Source of the DNA: Melioribacter roseus
GTDB taxonomy: Bacteria; Bacteroidota; Ignavibacteria; Ignavibacteriales; Melioribacteraceae
Direction: 5' to 3'
Assembly (NCBI GenBank): GCA_020724265.1
Contig: DYHH01000014.1
Location: 1 to 64,000 of the forward strand
Length of the DNA stretch: 64,000 nt
Shown here: positions 1 through 9,833 of the stretch, one piece after another
How positions within the stretch are numbered: position 1 is the stretch's first letter
Layout of the letters: every line of letters starts with the position of its first letter
Position numbers and translations under genes: made by a program
The notes under the pieces: generated by a model
The model's input: the letters and a program-made list of their open reading frames with translations, nothing else
What the model was told of the DNA's origin: nothing
Database searches by the model: none

Positions 1-18
1 CCTCGTAAATAAATCAAT

Positions 19-88
19 AACTAATTAATAGGAGTATGTTATGAAAAAACTGAAGTTAGATCTCAATGATCTAAAAGTGGAATCCTTT
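19..88 (+). repeat. Duplicated 5' leader and RiPP leader-peptide coding block, copy 1
   Basis: The stretch from AACTAATTAA through the ribosome binding site AGGAG (30-34) to codon 16 of the first precursor matches 2456-2525 in front of and inside the second precursor. The spacing to the ATG is 22 bases in both. The 16 encoded residues are identical although several codons differ at third positions, so the leader is under protein-level conservation. Confidence 0.85.
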
Positions 89-334
89 GAAACAAACCCG
101 CATTTTGTAAAAAGACAAGGCACTGTTCAGGGTTTTAAAACGGAAACCGCAAACACCTGCGATGAAGCTTGCCAGGCAACACTTGATTCATGTATTGTAA
201 CCAATTGTGGGAGTACTTGTGGAGCGACCTGTGATGCAACTTGTCCCGCAACATGCGGAGATACATGTGATAATATCACATGTGTCGGATGTCCAATTGA
301 TCCAACAAAAATTGGTGTGAATTGTGATGTTTAG
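41..334 (+). CDS. Lanthipeptide-type RiPP precursor 1, 97 aa
   Basis: A small precursor peptide. Residues 1-16 (MKKLKLDLNDLKVESF) are a leader of the type seen before class I lanthipeptides of Bacteroidota and related phyla (pinensin-like), followed by a GTVQ motif near residue 28. The core (about residues 33-97) has 12 cysteines and many Thr/Ser; residues 58-77 are five tandem four-residue units of the form xxTC (GSTC, GATC, DATC, PATC, GDTC), well suited to many small thioether rings. There is no double-glycine cleavage site. The start is fixed by AGGAG at 30-34. The gene is followed after 12 bases by a tRNA-like gene and then by the LanC gene. Precursor identity is strongly supported; the ring pattern and bioactivity are unknown. 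Confidence 0.9.
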   Translation: MKKLKLDLNDLKVESFETNPHFVKRQGTVQGFKTETANTCDEACQATLDSCIVTNCGSTCGATCDATCPATCGDTCDNITCVGCPIDPTKIGVNCDV

Positions 335-346
335 AAACTGAACTTA

Positions 347-423
347 AGCGCGTTCGTCTAACGGTTTAGGATACCGGCTCCTCAGGTCGGAGATGGGCGG
401 TTCAATTCCCCCACGCGCTACCA
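347..423 (+). tRNA. tRNA-Glu-like gene, anticodon CUC, copy 1 (unusual C33)
   Basis: Acceptor stem AGCGCGT (347-353) pairs perfectly with ACGCGCT (413-419), followed by A73 (420) and an encoded CCA (421-423). The D arm reads like tRNA-Glu (TTCGTCTAACGG...AGGA). The anticodon stem CCGGC/GTCGG encloses the loop TCCTCAG, giving anticodon CUC (Glu) but C instead of the nearly universal U at position 33. The T loop TTCAATT is canonical; the T stem GGCGG/CCCCC has a C-C mismatch at pair 51-63. The D loop has one extra T. It sits 12 bases after precursor 1 and 25 bases before the LanC gene. It could be a specialised tRNA for the RiPP pathway, or a decaying tRNA copy. Unlike tRNA-Pro and tRNA-Thr of this window it encodes CCA. 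Confidence 0.8.
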
Positions 424-448
424 GAGTAATTAATAAGGATTTAGAGTT

Positions 449-2425
449 GTGGAAAAGGAAATCTTTTTAGAAACTGCTCAAAGAATTGGCGATAGGTTGG
501 TTGATTCAGCAATTTGGTCAGATGGAAGTTGTACATGGAATGTAATGGCGCCTGACAGAGAAAATCCCGAGCTAAAAAAAGCAAAACGAGAGTTAGCCAG
601 GGGGTCTGTATATCAAGGTACAGCGGGGATAGCGTTATTCTTAAATGAACTTTCAAAGTATAGTGATAATAAAGCAGAGATTTTAAAGACTGCTGAAGGG
701 GCAGTTAAATATGCGATTGAAGAAGGAGAGAAATTACCAAATAACAGTTTCGGTTTTCACAGCGGGAGAATAGGAATTGCATACGCATCGGTTTTGTTTG
801 CTTTGGCTTCCGGTAAAGATGAATATTTAAAATCTGCTGAGGAATTATTACTACCGCTTAAAGGGAACGAAGATAAAGATTACGGATGGGATGTTATAGG
901 AGGAGCTGCCGGGGCTATCCCGGCTTTATTAGTAATTAATGAACATTTGGAAAATGATTTGACTTTTACAATTGCTGTAAGCCTTGGTGAAAATCTTATT
1001 AAAAAAGCAAACATGGAACCAACCGGCTGGTCATGGGGCGGTGGAAATACCAACATAAGAAATTTATGTGGTCTGGCCCACGGTGCTTCGGGAGTTGGGC
1101 ATGCATTTATTGAGTTATATAATTACACTGGGCTGTCAAAATATCTTTATGCCGCAGAGCAAGCATTCCTTTACGAAAGACAGTTCTTTAATGAAGAATC
1201 AAACAACTGGCCTGATTTCCGTTACTCGGAATTATCGGAATACATTTATGAAGAACGAATAGAGGAATTAAAAGAGGAGCTTAAAAAAGGAAATTTGCCA
1301 CCTTATAAAGACAAGTATATGTATGCATGGTGCCACGGCTCTCCCGGTATTGCTTTATCCCGGCTGCGTGCCTATGAAATAACTGGTTTAGATGTTTATA
1401 AAAAAGAAGCTGAACTAGCGGTTGAAGGGACAAAAAGATCACTTGCTAACGGAACAAATTATTCATTGTGCCATGGTATCGGCGGCAACTGTGAAGCTTT
1501 AATTTATGCCGGGGAGATACTAGAAGATCAGAATGCTTTAAGAATGACTGAAGAATTTGCGGAAAAAGGAATTGAGGAATATGAAGCACAAAATAAACCC
1601 TGGGCATGCGGAACTATGGGCGGTATTTCCGACCCGAGTTTAATGCTGGGTGAAGCCGGCATAGGGTATTTTTTGTTGCGTTTGTATTCAAAAGATGTTG
1701 ATTCGGTATTGGTTGTTCAACCCTCTAAAAAAGAAAGAATAGTTTCTTCAAAAGGAGGCTTAATAGAATTAAGAGAAAGTTATACTAATACTTACTTCAG
1801 TAGGACAAAAGAGTATCTCGAATTAACCGGCGGTGAATTGCTATTTAAAGGGCTACCAGATACTAATGAAATGATTTGTAAAAAAGAATCAGATGTTGAA
1901 CTTCTTTATAAAAATATCCAAAGATATATTGATAGTCTTTCAGAGGATGATAAAAATAAAATTGAAGATTTTTTCCAACTTGAAAAGGAGAAATATTTAC
2001 AGACATTGCATATCGAAGATTTCACTGAAGAATTTCGCAATAGCTTAGTCAAAAAAGAAGTAGAACAAATTGACTGGTCAAATAGTGTTTTGCAATTAAG
2101 CAAAACTTCAAAACTCATTGAACAGAAATGTAATTTGACCGATTGGTTGGAGAATGCAGGAAATGGAAAACCAAAAGGACCCTGTGAAGATGAGCAACAC
2201 TATTTATTATTTAAGCAAAACAATCATTATTATTTGAAAAAGCTTAATCCTTTTCTTGCTCTTTTATTTAATAACATACAACAACCGACAGAGTTTGAGA
2301 ACCTTGTTTCAAAAATAAAAAGTTCGCTTGAAAGTGAAATTTCTACTGATGAATTGAGAGAATTCATTAAGCAGCAATTAAAAGTTAGTTATGAAGCTGA
2401 TTTAATATTGGTTACTGAAAAATAA
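449..2425 (+). CDS. lanC: LanC-like lanthionine cyclase with C-terminal extension, 658 aa
   Basis: A zinc-dependent cyclase that adds Cys thiols to dehydrated Ser/Thr in the precursor. The alpha/alpha toroid spans about residues 50-415. Visible zinc ligands are Cys295 (in WCHGSPG), Cys341 and His342 (in LCHGIGG); His211 (in AHGASG) corresponds to the catalytic His of NisC. At 658 aa it is about 240 residues longer than standalone LanC. The extra part (about 420-658) has a helical linker and a final segment (about 582-655, starting HYLLFKQNNHYYLKKLNP) that resembles a PqqD-like peptide-recognition fold, which is an inference. It is not a LanM: no dehydratase domain is present and the cyclase is N-terminal. 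GTG start with AAGGA at 435-439, just after tRNA copy 1. Confidence 0.9.
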   Translation: MEKEIFLETAQRIGDRLVDSAIWSDGSCTWNVMAPDRENPELKKAKRELARGSVYQGTAGIALFLNELSKYSDNKAEILKTAEGAVKYAIEEGEKLPNNSFGFHSGRIGIAYASVLFALASGKDEYLKSAEELLLPLKGNEDKDYGWDVIGGAAGAIPALLVINEHLENDLTFTIAVSLGENLIKKANMEPTGWSWGGGNTNIRNLCGLAHGASGVGHAFIELYNYTGLSKYLYAAEQAFLYERQFFNEESNNWPDFRYSELSEYIYEERIEELKEELKKGNLPPYKDKYMYAWCHGSPGIALSRLRAYEITGLDVYKKEAELAVEGTKRSLANGTNYSLCHGIGGNCEALIYAGEILEDQNALRMTEEFAEKGIEEYEAQNKPWACGTMGGISDPSLMLGEAGIGYFLLRLYSKDVDSVLVVQPSKKERIVSSKGGLIELRESYTNTYFSRTKEYLELTGGELLFKGLPDTNEMICKKESDVELLYKNIQRYIDSLSEDDKNKIEDFFQLEKEKYLQTLHIEDFTEEFRNSLVKKEVEQIDWSNSVLQLSKTSKLIEQKCNLTDWLENAGNGKPKGPCEDEQHYLLFKQNNHYYLKKLNPFLALLFNNIQQPTEFENLVSKIKSSLESEISTDELREFIKQQLKVSYEADLILVTEK

Positions 2426-2455
2426 TTATTGGGTAGCGCCCCCCATAAAAATATA

Positions 2456-2525
2456 AACTAATTAAAAGGAGTTTGTTATGAAAAAGCTGAAATTGGATCT
2501 GAACGATCTGAAGGTTGAATCATTC
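2456..2525 (+). repeat. Duplicated 5' leader and RiPP leader-peptide coding block, copy 2
   Basis: Partner of the block at 19-88: AACTAATTAA, AGGAG (2467-2471), the same 22-base spacing to the ATG, and the same 16 encoded residues. Confidence 0.85.
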
Positions 2526-2696
2526 AAAATTTCCCCATCTATTAAAAAAGAAAGTGGAACAGTTCAGGCGTATGAAAAAGAATTATCAGCTTTGAACCCC
2601 GAGAGTGGATGCCCAGGCACTTGTATCCACACATGTGCAGTTACATGTTTTAATTCGTGTGATATTTCAATTTGTACTGGTGCAGCAATTTGTTAG
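2478..2696 (+). CDS. Lanthipeptide-type RiPP precursor 2, 72 aa
   Basis: Second precursor with the identical 16-residue leader start and a GTVQ motif near residue 27 (SGTVQAY). The core is shorter, with 7 cysteines, mostly in a four-residue rhythm (PGTC, IHTC, AVTC, FNSC) and a Cys C-terminus. The core sequence is different from precursor 1, so the two peptides would be different products made by the same enzymes. AGGAG at 2467-2471 fixes the ATG. It lies 52 bases after the LanC gene; that gap contains a G/C-rich stretch (2440-2454) that could form a small hairpin. Confidence 0.9.
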   Translation: MKKLKLDLNDLKVESFKISPSIKKESGTVQAYEKELSALNPESGCPGTCIHTCAVTCFNSCDISICTGAAIC

Positions 2697-2825
2697 TTTA
2701 ATAATGGGACTGAATCCAAAGTTATAAGGCAAATTTTGAAAAAAAATAAAGAAATTTTATCGATTGTCTTGGTATCGGTCCCTGTTTTATATTTGATTAG
2801 AAAACTTCACAGAGGAACTATAATC

Positions 2826-4721
2826 ATGAAAAGAAATAGTATTAAAGTTTATGCTATATTGTTTATTCTAATATGGCTGCAATTAGTTTCGTTTGCTCAG
2901 TCTGGCTCTGAGAGTTCAAAGGAATTATTTGTTGCCCAAATAAATAAAATTGAAGCCTTTGCAAAACTTTATGGATATATGAGATTTTTTTGTCCATCTG
3001 ATGTTGTAACAGATATTGACTGGAATAAGTTTGCAGTTTATGGAGTTATGAAGATATGGCAGTCAAGGGACAATAAAGAGTTAGAAACTACTTTAAAGGA
3101 ATTATTTCTTCCAATTACACCTGCTTTGCAAATTTATTCAAAAGAGGAAGACCCTCAAAATATATTTGCTTTTATTTCAAAAGATAATAGTCAAAAAAAA
3201 GCTGTTGCATGGCAGCATTATGGTGTTTGGTTATCAAAGAATTCAAATGTATACAAGAGTATGAGAGTTTTTTTAGAATCTAAACCACTTGAGAAGAACG
3301 AGATCCTATCTATGTTATCAAAAGTGGATAAGTCAGATTTGAAAAAGATATATTCTTATAAGTTGTTTGATAATGTACCTCAAGAATTTGAATATTATGA
3401 GACTAAAGTTGATTCTCAATTATTATGCAAAATCCCATTAACACTTAATTATGATAGCCTCGAAATTAATGGTCTGAATAACAACAACTATATTACTTTA
3501 TCAGAAGAATTAGATAGTTTTGATATAACAAAATTGACAATTAACAATCTTGATGTCAGATTAGCAAATGTTATCATTGTTTGGAACGTTATACAACATT
3601 TTTTCCCATATTTCGATGAAATAAAAATTGACTGGACTAAAGTACTTCCCGAGACATTAATAGAGGTTTTTGAAAACAATACTAGGGAAGAATTTTACGA
3701 TACTTTACGTAAAATGATGGCCAAACTTGGTGATGGACACAGCTATATTAATTTTACTCATGATTCTCCCGAAGGTGGATTACCTATTAGAGTAGATCAT
3801 ATTCAAAACCAATCTGTTGTAATAGCTACTGAAGATACACTATTTAAAAAAGGTGATATTATTAAAACCCTGGATGGGGAAAAAGCTGAAGATGTTATTA
3901 TAAGAATGCAAAAATATGAACGTGGTTCACCCCAGTTTAAGAAATTTTTGGCGTTACTTAATTTTGGAAATGGGCAGGTTGGTAGCAAAGCAAATATAGA
4001 GGTTATCAGAGAGAGTGAAACAATAAAACTAAGTACAAATCGAGTTTTAAAACCTGAAATCTTTTTCCAAACAAGATTGAGTGAATTTAATTATCCCTCA
4101 ATAAAAAAATTGGGAAAAGGAATTTATTATATAAATTGTTTGTCAATAGATCAGAATGAGTATAATGATAGTTTAACAGCCTTAGTTAACGCCAATGGAA
4201 TTATTTTTGATTTTAGATGGACAAGTATTAGGAGAGAAAATACATTACGTTTTAATCCAATTCGAGCATTAGTAAACTTAATTATCTCTCCAGTTGAGAC
4301 TCCTCCATCGAATATTCCCGCTATAGTATACCCGGATAGAAAAAAGTTGACCTTTATAGAAAATCAAACAACAATACCATCGAAAAGCCCATATATTAAT
4401 GCCTCCCTTGTTTTTTTGACTGATCCAAATGTAATAAGTTATATGGAAACCTTTTTGGATATTGCACAACATAATAATTTGGGCGTGCTAATTGGAGGAA
4501 TTACGGCCGGAACAAATGGTAATGTGAATCATATACCCTTACTGGATGGATACACGGTTATGTTCACAGGAGCTAAGATTTTAAAACTTGATGGTACGCA
4601 ACTTTACCAATTCGGAATAAAACCAGATTACCCTGTCAAAAGAACCATAAAAGCAGTAAAAGAAGGCAGAGATGAATACTTGGAAAAAGCAATAGAGGTA
4701 ATTAAAGCTAATGAAAAATAA
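2826..4721 (+). CDS. Secreted S41-family (C-terminal processing) peptidase, 631 aa
   Basis: A serine protease of the S41 family, here inside a RiPP locus. The ATG at 2826 is chosen because AGGA at 2813-2816 precedes it and it begins with a signal peptide ending near VSFAQ (residue 25); an upstream TTG at 2736 would bury the signal. Order: signal peptide, N-terminal helical region, S41 N-terminal domain (about 240-310, with GDGHSYI), a PDZ-like segment (about 320-390), and the catalytic core with the probable nucleophile Ser538 in ISYMETF and the typical C-terminal pattern GITAGTNG...GIKPDYPV. It ends 4 bases before tRNA copy 2. Its role in the cluster is unclear: processing or degradation of exported peptide, immunity, or unrelated cargo. 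Confidence 0.85.
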   Translation: MKRNSIKVYAILFILIWLQLVSFAQSGSESSKELFVAQINKIEAFAKLYGYMRFFCPSDVVTDIDWNKFAVYGVMKIWQSRDNKELETTLKELFLPITPALQIYSKEEDPQNIFAFISKDNSQKKAVAWQHYGVWLSKNSNVYKSMRVFLESKPLEKNEILSMLSKVDKSDLKKIYSYKLFDNVPQEFEYYETKVDSQLLCKIPLTLNYDSLEINGLNNNNYITLSEELDSFDITKLTINNLDVRLANVIIVWNVIQHFFPYFDEIKIDWTKVLPETLIEVFENNTREEFYDTLRKMMAKLGDGHSYINFTHDSPEGGLPIRVDHIQNQSVVIATEDTLFKKGDIIKTLDGEKAEDVIIRMQKYERGSPQFKKFLALLNFGNGQVGSKANIEVIRESETIKLSTNRVLKPEIFFQTRLSEFNYPSIKKLGKGIYYINCLSIDQNEYNDSLTALVNANGIIFDFRWTSIRRENTLRFNPIRALVNLIISPVETPPSNIPAIVYPDRKKLTFIENQTTIPSKSPYINASLVFLTDPNVISYMETFLDIAQHNNLGVLIGGITAGTNGNVNHIPLLDGYTVMFTGAKILKLDGTQLYQFGIKPDYPVKRTIKAVKEGRDEYLEKAIEVIKANEK

Positions 4722-4725
4722 AATC

Positions 4726-4801
4726 AGCGCGTTCGTCTAACGGTTTAGGACACCGGCTCCTCAGGTCGGAGATGGGGGTTCAACTCCACCACGCGCTACC
4801 A
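4726..4801 (+). tRNA. tRNA-Glu-like gene, anticodon CUC, copy 2 (unusual C33)
   Basis: Nearly identical to 347-423. Differences: C instead of T at the base of the D stem (restoring G10-C25), one base fewer before the T stem, one T-loop change (TTCAACT) and C to A in the 3' T-stem strand. Acceptor stem AGCGCGT/ACGCGCT, A73 and encoded CCA are kept, as is the anticodon loop TCCTCAG with C33. The T stem GGGGG/CCACC again fails only at pair 51-63 (G-A). It lies 4 bases after the S41 stop and 47 bases before the ABC exporter gene, in the same orientation, so it would be part of the same transcript. Confidence 0.8.
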
Positions 4802-4848
4802 TTTTAGAAAACTAGTTAATAAGTTATTTGTTAAATTAACGATTAGAA

Positions 4849-6639
4849 ATGGCTGAACAAATACCAAAATTAAAAGAATCACTAAAACTTTTTAGAAGAT
4901 TAATTCAGTTGATTAAGCCGTATTGGTCGAAACTCATCAAGGGAATGTCACTTGGTGTTGTTGTGGGAGTTTTAGGGATGGTAACACCATTTCTTACGAA
5001 ATTATTGATTGACGAGGTTTATCCTACCGAAGATGTTTCTTTAATGCATGTTCTTGTCGGCGGAGTTTTAGCAGTCAGTATTACATCCACTTTAATAAGA
5101 ACCGTTCAAAGTTATTTTAACTTATATGTTAATTCAAGATTATCAAATTCATTGAGTCTACTGTTTTTTAATCATTTACAGCACTTGCGTGTTCGTTTTT
5201 TTGACGAACATCGCGTTGGTGAAATAATGAGTAGGTTTAAGGATGTAAGTGCTGCATTAAAGACGGTTAATACAGTATTTCAAGCAATATTTGTTGATGG
5301 TATATACTTGTTATTAGTCCCGCCGTTTTTATTTTTTCTTCAATGGAAGCTTGCAATTGTGGCTTTAGTTAGTGTCCCTTTTACAATGATAATCATCACT
5401 CTTACAGGAAGAATAATAAGAAAATATTGGAAAAAATCTTCAGAGGCATACGCAGATTTGAACGCTTTTCAATTTGAAACTCTTACCCATATACGCGCAC
5501 TAAAAACAATGGCACTTGAAAAATATGTTTATAATGAAAATGAAAAACAAATGAAAAATGCCCTAGATCTACAACTTAAAGCCGGAGGCTTGGGGCAGCT
5601 TCTTGGAGTATCGAATGGAGTTCTTTATGCCTTAAGCACAGCACTTTTTACCTGGCTTGGATGGACTTATATTCTTACTAATCAAATGAGCCTTGGTGAT
5701 TTTATAGCTTTCAGCGCTTATATTGGCTATCTCTATAATCCTATTTCTAAGTTTGTTAACCTTTATTCCGAATTCCAGCAATCAGCTGTAAATCTAAACC
5801 GTATGTTCGAATACCTCGACAGCCCAACTGAGATAGATCCAAATTCTGTCCGCAGAAAATCTACTGCGCCGCTAAAAATTCTAAAGGGAACAATTGAATT
5901 AGAAGATGTTACATTTGGTTACTCGGAAAGAACCGAGGTGTTGCATAACATAAACTTAAAAATTGAACCAAAACAAATTACTTCGATTATTGGTCCTAGT
6001 GGTTCAGGTAAAACCACGTTGCTACGACTCATCGCAAAAATGGAAATTCCGGATAAAGGGAAAATTTATTATGACGGGATTCCTTCTACAGAATTCGGAT
6101 TACAGGAGGTAAGGCAACAGATATCCGTTGTTTGGCAAGAGTTTAGTATGTTGAGAGGGTCTATTTGGCAAAACCTTACGTTGGGAACAGAAAATGTAAA
6201 TAGTGATAAGGTTTTAGATGCAGTACGAGTTTGTAGAATGAATGATGTTATCAGTAAACTACCTGAAGGATATGACACACCAATTGCCGAATGGGGAGCA
6301 AGTTTATCCGGGGGGCAAAGACAAAGATTGGCTATTGCTCGCGCTCTTATTAGGAATACACCTATTTTAATTTTCGATGAAGCTACATCAAATATAGATA
6401 TAGAGACTGAGTCAGAGATGTTGAATGAAATATTTAATCAATATGGTGAAAAAACTACTATCTTTGTTACGCATAGAGTTCATTCTGCTAAATTAGCAGA
6501 TAAAATTTGTTTACTTATAGATGGAGTAATTGTTGATTCTGGGAACCATGATGAGCTGATGCAAAAAAGCGAGGATTATAGAAATATGATCAATACTAAT
6601 TCTAAACCATCCGATTATTCAATACATTCAATCAAGTAA
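4849..6639 (+). CDS. ABC transporter, fused membrane and ATPase domains (RiPP exporter), 596 aa
   Basis: An exporter half-transporter expected to pump the modified peptide out of the cytoplasm. Residues about 15-320 are a six-helix type-1 exporter membrane domain; the ATPase has Walker A GPSGSGKTT (about 381), signature LSGGQRQR (about 485) and Walker B ILIFDEATS (about 506). There is no N-terminal C39 peptidase domain, which fits precursors without a double-glycine site and a separate protease in the locus. It is followed 8 bases later by an HlyD-type adaptor, so a tripartite export path to the outer membrane is likely, although no TolC-like gene is in the window. Confidence 0.92.
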   Translation: MAEQIPKLKESLKLFRRLIQLIKPYWSKLIKGMSLGVVVGVLGMVTPFLTKLLIDEVYPTEDVSLMHVLVGGVLAVSITSTLIRTVQSYFNLYVNSRLSNSLSLLFFNHLQHLRVRFFDEHRVGEIMSRFKDVSAALKTVNTVFQAIFVDGIYLLLVPPFLFFLQWKLAIVALVSVPFTMIIITLTGRIIRKYWKKSSEAYADLNAFQFETLTHIRALKTMALEKYVYNENEKQMKNALDLQLKAGGLGQLLGVSNGVLYALSTALFTWLGWTYILTNQMSLGDFIAFSAYIGYLYNPISKFVNLYSEFQQSAVNLNRMFEYLDSPTEIDPNSVRRKSTAPLKILKGTIELEDVTFGYSERTEVLHNINLKIEPKQITSIIGPSGSGKTTLLRLIAKMEIPDKGKIYYDGIPSTEFGLQEVRQQISVVWQEFSMLRGSIWQNLTLGTENVNSDKVLDAVRVCRMNDVISKLPEGYDTPIAEWGASLSGGQRQRLAIARALIRNTPILIFDEATSNIDIETESEMLNEIFNQYGEKTTIFVTHRVHSAKLADKICLLIDGVIVDSGNHDELMQKSEDYRNMINTNSKPSDYSIHSIK

Positions 6640-6647
6640 ATATTAAA

Positions 6648-7826
6648 ATGAATAATAATATTCCAAACGAGAAAGAAAATTCCAAAGAATCGGAATTAAT
6701 GTTGCCGGAATTTGACGTTGACAAAAATCTACCTCTTAGAGTAGTGACAAAATCAGTCAGTGTAACTTTCATTATTCTTTTGATAGTGGTCTCACTTACC
6801 GGTATAATTATATTTACTGTTGAAATGGATGTTACTGTTAATGCAAACGGATTTTTAGAAGCTTCAAATGTATCGCGATTGCATAGTCCCGAATCCGGTG
6901 TGATAAATCGAGTATTTATTTTTAGCGGTGATACGGTTCAAGTAAATCAGAAAATTGCTGAATTAGATTCAACCGAGTTAAGAGAACGTCTCATCCAAAT
7001 TAATTCAGAACTGGCTCTTAAAAAGAATAGTTACAATAGACTCAAACAGAACATCAATTACTCAGTGCGAGAAAATGAAATTCAGTTAAGTAAAGCAAAG
7101 TCACAATTGATAAGAGCAAAAGCTTCGTTCAGAGATCGATTATTTGATTTTTTCCCCAATGATGATCCTGACTCTGTATTCGAGAACTATATTCCCGGTG
7201 AACATATTAATCTGGATTTTGCTATGGCTGAAGTTAATATAGCGTTATCGGAAATAGACAACCAAGTTTTAAAATCTGAGATGATAGCACTCAACGAATA
7301 TGAACTGAATGAATTGGAAATTTCTATAAACAAATTGTCAGAAGAAAAAAAGATAAATGAAGAAAAGCTCACAAACCTTGTAATAAGATCACCTGTTGAT
7401 GGAATAATCTTATCGGAAGGTGTTGATAGATTAGTAGGTGAATATTTTTCTAAAGGAACATTGCTCCTGGAGATTTCTATTGTTGATGATTGGAATGCAA
7501 CTCTTTTTGTACAAGAAAATGAAATTCATAAAATTAAATTAAGAGATCGGGTTAAAGTTGAAATAATTGCGTTAAAATCCAAAAGAGATATTGAACTTCT
7601 TAATGCAACGGTAAAGTCCGTTGCAGCTGAATCTATAAGTAATAAAGATGTTAAGTATGCAAACTTTGCTGGTTTTTATAGAGTATCGGTCAAGTTTGAT
7701 GAGAATAGTGAAAACAATTTATTCTTAGATTTATTCAAACACGGTTATTCTGTAAAAGCAAATATAATTACTCGCTCCGGGAAAATTGCTCAACTAATTT
7801 ATGATTATATCACAGAGAATTTATAA
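6648..7826 (+). CDS. HlyD-family membrane fusion protein, 392 aa
   Basis: Periplasmic adaptor for the ABC exporter upstream. A single N-terminal membrane helix lies at about residues 38-58; then a biotinyl-lipoyl-like half motif (about 72-112, with SPESGVINRVFIFSGDTV), a coiled coil (about 115-240) and the second lipoyl half and beta domain (about 245-300, VIRSPVDGIILSEG). It starts 8 bases after the exporter gene and ends 2 bases before the subtilase gene, so the three are clearly one operon. This architecture matches adaptors of bacteriocin and RiPP exporters. Confidence 0.9.
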   Translation: MNNNIPNEKENSKESELMLPEFDVDKNLPLRVVTKSVSVTFIILLIVVSLTGIIIFTVEMDVTVNANGFLEASNVSRLHSPESGVINRVFIFSGDTVQVNQKIAELDSTELRERLIQINSELALKKNSYNRLKQNINYSVRENEIQLSKAKSQLIRAKASFRDRLFDFFPNDDPDSVFENYIPGEHINLDFAMAEVNIALSEIDNQVLKSEMIALNEYELNELEISINKLSEEKKINEEKLTNLVIRSPVDGIILSEGVDRLVGEYFSKGTLLLEISIVDDWNATLFVQENEIHKIKLRDRVKVEIIALKSKRDIELLNATVKSVAAESISNKDVKYANFAGFYRVSVKFDENSENNLFLDLFKHGYSVKANIITRSGKIAQLIYDYITENL

Positions 7827-7828
7827 AA

Positions 7829-8644
7829 ATGAAACATGCTATAACCAATGGAAATCATTTTTTTGAAGGCTCTATTTGTTCGATTAGAGAAACTTGTTTA
7901 AGTGATTATTTTAAAAACTCCATTGGCAGCGGAGTTACAATCGCAGTTATTGATAGCGGTTGGAATTATTCACTAATCGATTCTCGAATTCAAAATGGTA
8001 CTGGTTTTGTTGATCGATTCGATGAACTTAGCTTAAAAGTAAATGAAAATTATTTTGATGAAAATGGACATGGGACAGCAGTAACCGACCTGATTCTTAG
8101 AATTGCGCCAGGAACAACTATTATTCCCTTAAAAGTTTTTGGAAAAAGATTGGAAACTTCTGTTAATATTTTAGTTGAAGCTATACTTTGGTGCATTAAA
8201 AACAAAGTAAAAATTATTAACCTTAGTTTGGGAACACTTCTTGATGAAGCTCTTAAACCTTTATATCAAGTGTGTGAATTAGCAAAACAAAATGGAATAA
8301 TAATTGTATCTGCCCAATCGAATTCAAATGAATATAGTTATCCTTCAATTTTTGAAAACTCTATAGGAGTAAAGAACGGTCAATTAAATAGCATTTTTGA
8401 AATAATATATTTGCATGATGAAGCTACTGAGTGTATAGCCAAAGGTTTTCACGAAGATTTACTTTATCTTAATGGTGAAAGAGTTAAATCAGCAGGTAAT
8501 AGTTTTGCCGCGCCTATCATAACCGGGTTGGTAGCTCTGTTTTCTCAAAATAATAATAAACTCGACCTAAATGAGGCAAGGAATAAGTTAGAAAATTATT
8601 TTCATTTTCTACAAGATAAAGCGTTAAACTCTTTTGTTAGTTGA
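7829..8644 (+). CDS. Subtilisin-like S8 peptidase without signal peptide (LanP-like), 271 aa
   Basis: Probable leader peptidase. The S8 catalytic triad is intact: Asp42 (VIDSG), His81 (NGHGTAV) and Ser225 (GNSFAAP); Asn165 sits where the oxyanion Asn is expected. There is no signal peptide, propeptide or membrane segment, so it should act in the cytoplasm, as known for some LanP enzymes. At 271 aa it is a minimal subtilase. It is the last gene of the exporter operon, and the exporter lacks its own C39 protease, so leader removal is its most likely job. Its 3' end overlaps the convergent NPP gene by 8 bases. Confidence 0.88.
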   Translation: MKHAITNGNHFFEGSICSIRETCLSDYFKNSIGSGVTIAVIDSGWNYSLIDSRIQNGTGFVDRFDELSLKVNENYFDENGHGTAVTDLILRIAPGTTIIPLKVFGKRLETSVNILVEAILWCIKNKVKIINLSLGTLLDEALKPLYQVCELAKQNGIIIVSAQSNSNEYSYPSIFENSIGVKNGQLNSIFEIIYLHDEATECIAKGFHEDLLYLNGERVKSAGNSFAAPIITGLVALFSQNNNKLDLNEARNKLENYFHFLQDKALNSFVS

Positions 8645-9833
8645 AGTCTAAGATAAATCCGATTCGTTCAAGTTTACCGTCAATATTTTGTGGTTGGGGT
8701 ATACCGAATATTTCACATAGCAGCGGATAAATATCTACATTCCATACTGTCCCGGTTTTATACCCTTTTTTGAATGCCGGACCTTTTGCGATAAAAATTC
8801 CGTGCATATCTAATTGGTTATGATCAAAACCATGAGTACCAACCGAAGCATAATTATCCCATTTTTCAAGATCATCGTTATGGATTAGCAACCAGCCTAA
8901 ATCCGCAATTAAAACAAAGTCTGAGATTAACCCGTTCTTTGAATAATGATAATATTCCGGGACGTTCTCCCGTTCATAAAATTTATAATGTCTTTGGTTA
9001 GCTTCCAATCTTGTTTTTATTTTTTCTCTATCTTTTTCAGAAGGTTGAATCATCATGAAAGGATCACCGCCGGTTGCAGTATATTCAAGTCCATCCAACA
9101 TTTGCTCAATGTTTATTGTTCGCTCTTTGGAAATCTCGGTCATGCCATGATCGGAAGTTAAAATTATATTTACACTGTCGATTAAACCGATTTTGTCCAA
9201 ACCAATAAACATATAGTTGACAAGCGAATCACATCTTTGAATTGAAAGATTAATCTCTTCAGAATTTGGTCCGAAACGGTGACCTTTTGTATCGGTCTCG
9301 TCAAAATAAATTGATAGAAAATGCGGTCGCTTCTCTTTAGGAAATTGAAGCCATTTTATTAATGAATCAATTCGTTCTTCGTAAGGTTTTTCGTGTTCGT
9401 AAACTTTCGAATATGTTGGTCTCCTTGTTTCATCATCCAAACGCGAGCCTGGCCAAAAATATGTTCCTGTAGTTATTCCGTTATATTCCGCTGTTTCCCA
9501 AAAAGCTCTGCCGACCCACCAGCTGTTTTTTGTGGTACGCATTCCAAACCATTCACCAGAATGAGGATCCCCAAATCTGTTTGAAATGATTCCATGATTC
9601 TGCGGATACAAACCGGTTATAATTGAATAATGATTTGGAAATGTTTTTGATGGAAATGCCGGTCTTAATGATAAAGCATGTACACCATTATCAATAATTT
9701 TTTGAATATTCGGGGTAATATTTCGATTCGCATAATCCCATCTAAAACCGTCGAATGATACTAATATAACATATGGTTTTGCTGCAAATATTTGTGCTGC
9801 TATAAATAAGAAAAGTATGAGAAATTTTTTCAT
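8637..9833 (-). CDS. Nucleotide pyrophosphatase/phosphodiesterase (NPP) family, alkaline phosphatase superfamily, 398 aa
   Basis: A secreted metal-dependent phosphodiesterase. Signal peptide at residues 1-18 (cleavage near IFAAKP). Metal ligand Asp28 (SFDGFR), nucleophile Thr64 (PSKTFPNH), further metal motifs YFDETDTKGH and TSDHGM, and GTHGFDH near the C-terminus match the NPP/type I phosphodiesterase family. The substrate (nucleotide, phospholipid or other diester) cannot be told from sequence. It is a single gene, convergent with the RiPP operon; the upstream side (9834-9984) carries two hairpins. Confidence 0.88.
   Translation of the reverse strand: MKKFLILFLFIAAQIFAAKPYVILVSFDGFRWDYANRNITPNIQKIIDNGVHALSLRPAFPSKTFPNHYSIITGLYPQNHGIISNRFGDPHSGEWFGMRTTKNSWWVGRAFWETAEYNGITTGTYFWPGSRLDDETRRPTYSKVYEHEKPYEERIDSLIKWLQFPKEKRPHFLSIYFDETDTKGHRFGPNSEEINLSIQRCDSLVNYMFIGLDKIGLIDSVNIILTSDHGMTEISKERTINIEQMLDGLEYTATGGDPFMMIQPSEKDREKIKTRLEANQRHYKFYERENVPEYYHYSKNGLISDFVLIADLGWLLIHNDDLEKWDNYASVGTHGFDHNQLDMHGIFIAKGPAFKKGYKTGTVWNVDIYPLLCEIFGIPQPQNIDGKLERIGFILDFN

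Follow-up and report, generated by a model that had tools for sequence, protein, structure and literature searches.

A lineage of tRNA-Glu genes resident in a lanthipeptide locus of Melioribacter roseus: a probable glutamyl donor

The first 64,000 nucleotides of contig DYHH01000014.1 of Melioribacter roseus (assembly GCA_020724265.1; this whole stretch is called the window) carry at their left end a lanthipeptide locus in which two genes resembling tRNA-Glu(CUC) are embedded. What we observed is a lineage of such genes, common to this locus and two related ones, the places that it occupies and its sequence pattern. We consider it likely, with a probability of about 0.68, that these embedded genes are a tRNA-Glu lineage resident in the lanthipeptide locus and serving as its glutamyl donor. 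Class I lanthipeptide dehydratases take glutamate from Glu-tRNA, reading the acceptor stem, and LanB enzymes of Bacteroidota did better in E. coli when they were given the tRNA-Glu and the glutamyl-tRNA synthetase (GluRS) of a Bacteroidota producer (PMC9993889, PMC10877564, PMC7296275).

The two genes are as follows.

347..423, + strand: embedded tRNA-Glu(CUC) copy 1 (ARAGORN; Rfam 45.6 bits; structural parse)
4726..4801, + strand: embedded tRNA-Glu(CUC) copy 2 (ARAGORN; Rfam 46.2 bits; structural parse)

The sequence-only reading of the window had reported two tRNA-Glu(CUC)-like genes within a lanthipeptide locus, and both are indeed called by ARAGORN and by Rfam (gathering cut-off 29), which agree on the anticodon CUC. 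Their places are also as that reading had them: copy 1 lies between the genes for precursor 1 and the LanC cyclase, beginning 12 nucleotides past the precursor 1 stop, and copy 2 lies between the S41-family gene and the exporter gene, beginning 4 nucleotides past the S41 stop. Each has the cloverleaf with the Glu anticodon that is expected of a tRNA-Glu, and the structural parse gives A1-U72 and A73 in both, in agreement with the earlier claim, together with U32-C33. The copies match each other at 95% over the tRNA, while the remaining 11 matches of the copy 1 stretch in the genome extend over 14–22 bases. A pattern for tRNA-Glu with C33 finds exactly these two genes in the window and nothing in 100 shuffled sequences, which excludes chance. 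Besides them, the genome carries two UUC genes and one CUC gene of the ordinary tRNA-Glu kind, whose Rfam scores are higher (61.1 bits for each UUC copy and 65.7 for CUC); among the 45 tRNA rows of the genome the embedded copies rank 41 and 42. Both encode the 3' CCA (420–423 and 4798–4801), which is encoded in none of the 31 other tRNA genes of the genome (30 checked by script and one initiator tRNA by eye).

The LanC protein of one relative, G361, was used as a query against the 79 genomes of the family, and a full match was obtained in three, namely the window genome, G361 and G218, which represent three different genera. Related loci had been proposed by the sequence-only reading as the place to look for embedded tRNA-Glu, and the same lineage is present in both relatives: there are two embedded copies in the window genome, one in G218 and three in G361. 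No tRNA stands beside a second LanC-like stretch of G361 or beside a weak, stop-containing one in G073 (3.2–3.6 kb examined). The G218 locus (L043) reads LanB-N, LanB-C, LanC, nucleotidyltransferase, precursor, tRNA-Glu(UUC), ABC exporter, HlyD and S8. The G361 locus (L306) reads precursor, tRNA-Glu(UUC), LanB-N, LanB-C, LanC, nucleotidyltransferase, precursor and tRNA-Glu(UUC), and onward methyltransferase, precursor, a tRNA with the anticodon UUU, ABC exporter, HlyD and S8. Thus, UUC is found in three of the relatives' four embedded copies and UUU in one. Both relatives have a split class I LanB pair beside LanC: LanB-N matches PF04738 (6.3e-32 in G218 and 2.8e-39 in G361) and LanB-C matches PF14028 (4.4e-36 and 1.9e-42, respectively). 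In the PDB, a profile built from both LanB-N proteins matched a lantibiotic dehydratase of known structure as well as a goadsporin protein. Some L306 proteins (the three precursors, both LanB proteins, LanC, the nucleotidyltransferase and others) were aligned or family-searched minus their last residue.

The position of the tRNA genes is similar in the three loci. Five of the six begin 9–22 nucleotides past a precursor stop and the sixth is the one behind the S41 gene; in each of the three loci, the gene immediately before the exporter gene is a tRNA gene. Four of the six precursors have a pinensin-family leader scoring above the NCBIfam cut-off. In both relatives, LanC is separated from a precursor gene by the nucleotidyltransferase-domain gene (L043:7768-8487 and L306:12940-13644), and no convincing solved relative of its product was found (best E 0.21). 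The relatives, which have this gene, have tRNAs without encoded CCA; the window locus has encoded CCA and no such gene in its readable part. No aminoacyl-tRNA synthetase is among the genes read at the three loci.

For each embedded tRNA, the closest of ten selected canonical CUC sequences served as the reference, and the differences proved to be unevenly distributed. Few of them fall in the acceptor stem (5 of 84 positions), D stem (1 of 48) or discriminator (0 of 6), and many in the anticodon stem (26 of 60), anticodon loop (22 of 42) and T stem (30 of 60). Among the ten canonical sequences themselves the T stem differs at none of 450 positions. The contrast between the acceptor and the other stems has a Fisher P of 3.4e-7, to be taken as a guide value only, the copies being related. 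Despite this turnover, standard pairs are found in 98.4% of 126 cells across the six copies, and 15 cells are changed on both sides, compared with 4.0 in shuffles (none of 500 as high); two other pairing measures are weaker: the observed number of pairs with a two-sided change was reached by 38 of 500 shuffles, and that of further pair types by 75 of 500. A branch with 100/100 support separates the six embedded sequences from the others in a tree of 16 chosen rows, and the six look derived from the tRNA-Glu(CUC) of the family.

GluRS is described as requiring U35, C36, A37, U11-A24, U13-G22:A46 and the absence of base 47 (PMC9976931), and the affinity for EF-Tu as being determined by the T-stem pairs 49-65, 50-64 and 51-63 (PMC11231383). 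The embedded tRNAs retain U11-A24, U13-G22, A46 and A37, and five of the six retain U35-C36, with U36 in one G361 copy. The variable loop of window copy 1 has five bases unless a C is bulged in the T stem, so that the absence of base 47 is undecided in that copy. Measured against ordinary translational tRNAs, the lineage departs at U33 (C33 in all six) and at the T-stem pair G51-C63. The 51-63 pair is U-A in four copies, G.A in window copy 2 and C.C, or a bulged C, in window copy 1, where the Rfam alignment shows the bulge in place of C.C. In addition, U32 could pair with G38 or A38 in all six. By sequence, then, what distinguishes the embedded lineage is U32-C33 together with a T stem that has been rebuilt while the acceptor stem was conserved, and this combination of a conserved acceptor end with changed translation contacts suits a tRNA retained for GluRS and LanB.

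In the dehydratase MibB, U72 and A73 of tRNA-Glu are reportedly important, and the sequence-only reading had used their presence as an argument that the embedded tRNAs are LanB substrates. The argument is weak: all 18 canonical CUC genes read from the family, that of the host included, have both bases (G1.U72 and A73), and we dropped U72/A73 as a mark of a LanB substrate. The 18 UUC genes read have G1-C72 and A73. Positions 32 and 33 are more informative. The 36 canonical tRNA-Glu genes that were fully read all have G51-C63 and C32-U33. A tRNA-Glu pattern gave 130 matches in 73 of the 79 family genomes: 119 canonical copies with C32-U33, none with U32-C33; the six embedded copies, all with U32-C33; and five judged by eye not to be tRNAs. 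Among 391 genomes of the class, the C33 pattern occurs in 3, exactly the carriers of the locus, with five matches in total, the UUU copy of G361 being outside the reach of the pattern.

The remaining genes of the window locus are listed below.

41..334, + strand: lanthipeptide precursor 1 (97 amino acids, pinensin-type leader; NCBIfam NF038180 25.4 bits, cut-off 24)
449..2425, + strand: LanC-type cyclase (658 amino acids with a C-terminal extension; Pfam LANC_like 204.5 bits)
2478..2696, + strand: lanthipeptide precursor 2 (72 amino acids, leader type as in precursor 1; precursor-profile match and alignment with precursor 1)
2826..4721, + strand: S41-family protease-like protein (Pfam Peptidase_S41 36.4 bits; ATG at 2826)
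4849..6639, + strand: ABC exporter (596 amino acids; Pfam ABC_membrane and ABC_tran)
6648..7826, + strand: HlyD-type membrane-fusion protein (Pfam HlyD_D23 and HlyD_3)
7829..8644, + strand: subtilase (S8), candidate leader peptidase (Pfam Peptidase_S8 72.7 bits)

Of the features of a class I lanthipeptide locus, the window locus has a leader of class I type, a Cys/Thr-rich core and a LanC cyclase. Over its whole length precursor 1 contains 14 Thr, 3 Ser and 12 Cys, and it can be aligned with five related precursors; precursor 2 has no NCBIfam match of its own. LanC starts 25 nucleotides past tRNA copy 1, its residues H211, C295-H296 and C341-H342 are invariant in an alignment of three homologues, and its PDB matches include NisC. 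The open reading frame (ORF) of the S41 protein reaches upstream to a TTG at 2736; S41-like ORFs were also seen by eye near a precursor or LanB in the class loci L307 and L308. S8 homologues occupy the equivalent place in L043 and L306. A promoter scan gave 26 sites in the window (shuffled mean 20.4) and 43 in L306 (45.9), that is, about the shuffled number. The locus adjoins a phosphodiesterase-like gene (window 8637-9833, − strand), whose G361 counterpart is 49% identical over 235 residues. Sequence comparison thus suggests that this neighbour marks a conserved chromosomal place and that the locus is a resident one.

On the proposed donor role, the locus would be transcribed as an mRNA with the tRNAs between the genes, and the normal tRNA-processing enzymes would excise them. 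The host GluRS would then charge the embedded tRNAs with glutamate, as their conserved identity elements lead us to expect. A split class I LanB, of the kind whose genes are present in the two relatives, would read the acceptor stem and take the glutamate for the activation of Ser and Thr residues in the precursor. With the anticodon arm and T stem altered, use by the ribosome and EF-Tu may be weakened, leaving the charged pool for LanB. Finally, the location of most of the tRNA genes just behind a precursor gene may couple the supply of donor to the demand for it, which the ~13–20 Ser and Thr residues per precursor would make worthwhile. The embedded lineage is best read as partly withdrawn from translation and encoded within the operon. 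A stronger form, in which a tRNA family common to three genera is withdrawn from translation and feeds only the peptide-modifying enzyme, its acceptor end held for GluRS and LanB, its EF-Tu and ribosome contacts given up and its supply scaling with precursor output, seems to us as probable as its opposite.

The sequence-only reading had the tRNAs as private substrates of the dehydratase of the locus. Comparison supports this well, with the lineage found in two more genera beside a split LanB and C33 confined to 3 of the 391 class genomes, but several observations weigh against it, the first being that no LanB was found in the assembled window genome. Neither family nor protein searches gave such a gene there (PF14028 was not searched there); the same searches matched in G218, so that a gene of this kind is detectable. 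Moreover, in the window LanC directly follows tRNA 1, where G361 has LanB. Given that order, a LanB of the window genome would have to be situated beyond the left end of the contig or on a piece missing from the assembly. Base 1 of the window is base 1 of its contig (C12) and the contig ends 40 bases before precursor 1; for this reason the absence is not decisive. The lack of a dehydratase in the genome, which the sequence-only reading had named as one of the findings that would count against it, is literally the state of the assembled sequence, with the same contig end left of precursor 1 depriving it of decisive force.

Other unfavourable points concern the tRNAs themselves and their distribution. 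The third G361 copy (L306:15276-15349) has a UUU anticodon on a Glu-type body and is called tRNA-Lys by ARAGORN. No tRNA is found directly behind precursor 2 of the window or behind a stray G361 precursor on another contig (L445:610-900, − strand). Copy 1 may retain G51-C63 through its bulged C. Folded alone, the window copies are no stabler than shuffles (z −1.1 and −1.6), and the best standalone fold of copy 1 is not the cloverleaf; the host CUC tRNA behaves likewise (z −1.2). Among other genomes, a draw from the phylum provided 45 LanB loci in 33 genomes; none of these loci has an embedded tRNA-Glu, and 6 of the loci have another tRNA. An embedded tRNA is likewise present in none of 10 LanB or LanC stretches from 6 other genomes of the class (several of them short contigs). 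Outside the class, the C33 pattern matched at least 117 stretches of genome_contigs and at least 120 of viral_contigs, and many of the genome_contigs matches listed are ordinary-looking tRNA-Glu of Campylobacterota and other phyla, with relatives of Sulfurimonas prominent. Among the 237 C33 stretches listed and fetched, tblastn gave no match to the LanB, LanC and nucleotidyltransferase queries, and the ABC query matched in 11; a LanC search of genome_contigs gave no match. With so many C33 tRNA-Glu genes in genome_contigs and viral_contigs, C33 was dropped as proof of non-decoding. On the sequences compared, it is lineage-specific within the class and does not by itself exclude decoding.

We also considered that the locus may be of class II, as the window LanC scores 268 bits with the LanM model (below the cut-off of 304). 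This was set aside on the strength of the split LanB in the relatives, the lack of a DUF4135 match and reports that LanM-like LanC proteins occur in class I loci of Bacteroidetes with pinensin-family precursors (PMC7268733). The DUF4135 search (PF13575, class II LanM dehydratase) found nothing in the window genome, and no control genome matched it either.

A different role for the tRNAs would be that of processing marks: RNase P and 3' processing would cut the mRNA behind the precursor, defining the end and abundance of the message, and aminoacylation would be incidental. The spacing of five of the six tRNAs just behind a precursor stop would suit this, as would the absence of terminator-like sites from the gap separating precursor and tRNA and from the sequence following each tRNA (window 1-5200 scanned) and the UUU copy of G361, which suggests that the anticodon is dispensable. 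However, a cut site has no need of a retained acceptor stem, discriminator and GluRS determinants alongside compensated turnover of the T and anticodon stems; copy 2 lies behind the S41 gene rather than a precursor, and all six tRNAs are of Glu descent. We regard incidental aminoacylation as unlikely, although the processing and donor roles could coexist.

Extra translational tRNA-Glu genes that help to translate the locus would be expected to have what most of these copies have, a Glu anticodon (five of six) and most of the cloverleaf, and many other bacteria possess tRNA-Glu genes with C33. Codon usage goes some way in the same direction, and counts against the donor role: GAG accounts for 53 of 219 Glu codons in the locus (24%) and for 169 of 944 in other window ORFs of at least 300 amino acids (18%). 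Nevertheless, GAG is missing from precursor 1 and occurs once in precursor 2, the host retains its own CUC and UUC genes, the embedded copies of G218 and G361 are UUC or UUU, and it is the parts read by EF-Tu and the ribosome that are changed. Such a translational role appears quite improbable.

We give slightly less credence still to the idea that the copies are decaying functionless duplicates or relics of the attachment site of a mobile element. Decay would account for the low Rfam scores and irregular T stems of the window copies, for their folding no better than shuffles and for the UUU copy of G361, but not for whole tRNAs with 98.4% of pair cells intact, compensated changes over three genera and equivalent locus positions in the relatives. 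Integration leaves 3' tRNA fragments, whereas these copies are full-length, and the phosphodiesterase neighbour held in common with G361 fits a resident locus. A genuine donor acting in some tRNA-dependent step other than Ser/Thr dehydration (through a LanB-like ligase, say, or the nucleotidyltransferase of G218 and G361) has very little probability: a nucleotidyltransferase-domain gene does lie beside precursor and tRNA in both relatives, and UUU could mean lysine as well as glutamate, but the split LanB pair is complete in G218 and in G361 and belongs by family match to the dehydrating type, and Thr/Cys-rich cores fit dehydration and cyclisation.

The ribosome and the class I lanthipeptide enzymes are competitors for Glu-tRNA, and lanthipeptide production in E. 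coli is limited by tRNA-Glu specificity (PMC9993889, PMC9576775). If the donor role is real, a locus that supplies an altered tRNA of its own would show how two pools of Glu-tRNA are kept apart in bacteria, its natural sequences would reveal which parts of the tRNA LanB requires and would offer a ready donor for heterologous production, and embedded tRNAs would become a marker to seek in other tRNA-dependent clusters. Within the open PMC literature, the scope of the search, no lanthipeptide cluster with tRNA genes of its own was found.

Among known systems, the closest in enzymology are the class I dehydratases (NisB, MibB and the Chryseobacterium and Runella LanBs), with which the two related loci have in common the LanB glutamylation and elimination proteins and LanC. 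Those systems are described as drawing on ordinary genomic tRNA-Glu; here, an altered tRNA-Glu lineage lies within the locus. The pinensin-type loci of Bacteroidota are similar in leader, split LanB (in the relatives) and LanM-like LanC (PMC7268733) and differ in the embedded tRNAs found here; the contrast is drawn with LanB and LanC loci generally, namely the 10 class stretches and the 45 loci of the phylum. In the case of valanimycin, the locus supplies its own seryl-tRNA synthetase, VlmL (PMC4052509), whereas here the locus supplies the tRNA instead. The nearest parallel for the tRNAs is the cell-wall tRNA-Gly of Staphylococcus aureus, likewise diverted from translation and with G51-C63 replaced (PMC4052509, PMC9976931); that pair is outright missing in five of the six embedded copies, copy 1 having C.C or a bulged C. 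The amino acid, the pathway and the ancestry are different, and the tRNAs described here lie inside a biosynthetic locus, mostly behind precursors, with escape from EF-Tu as a putative point in common.

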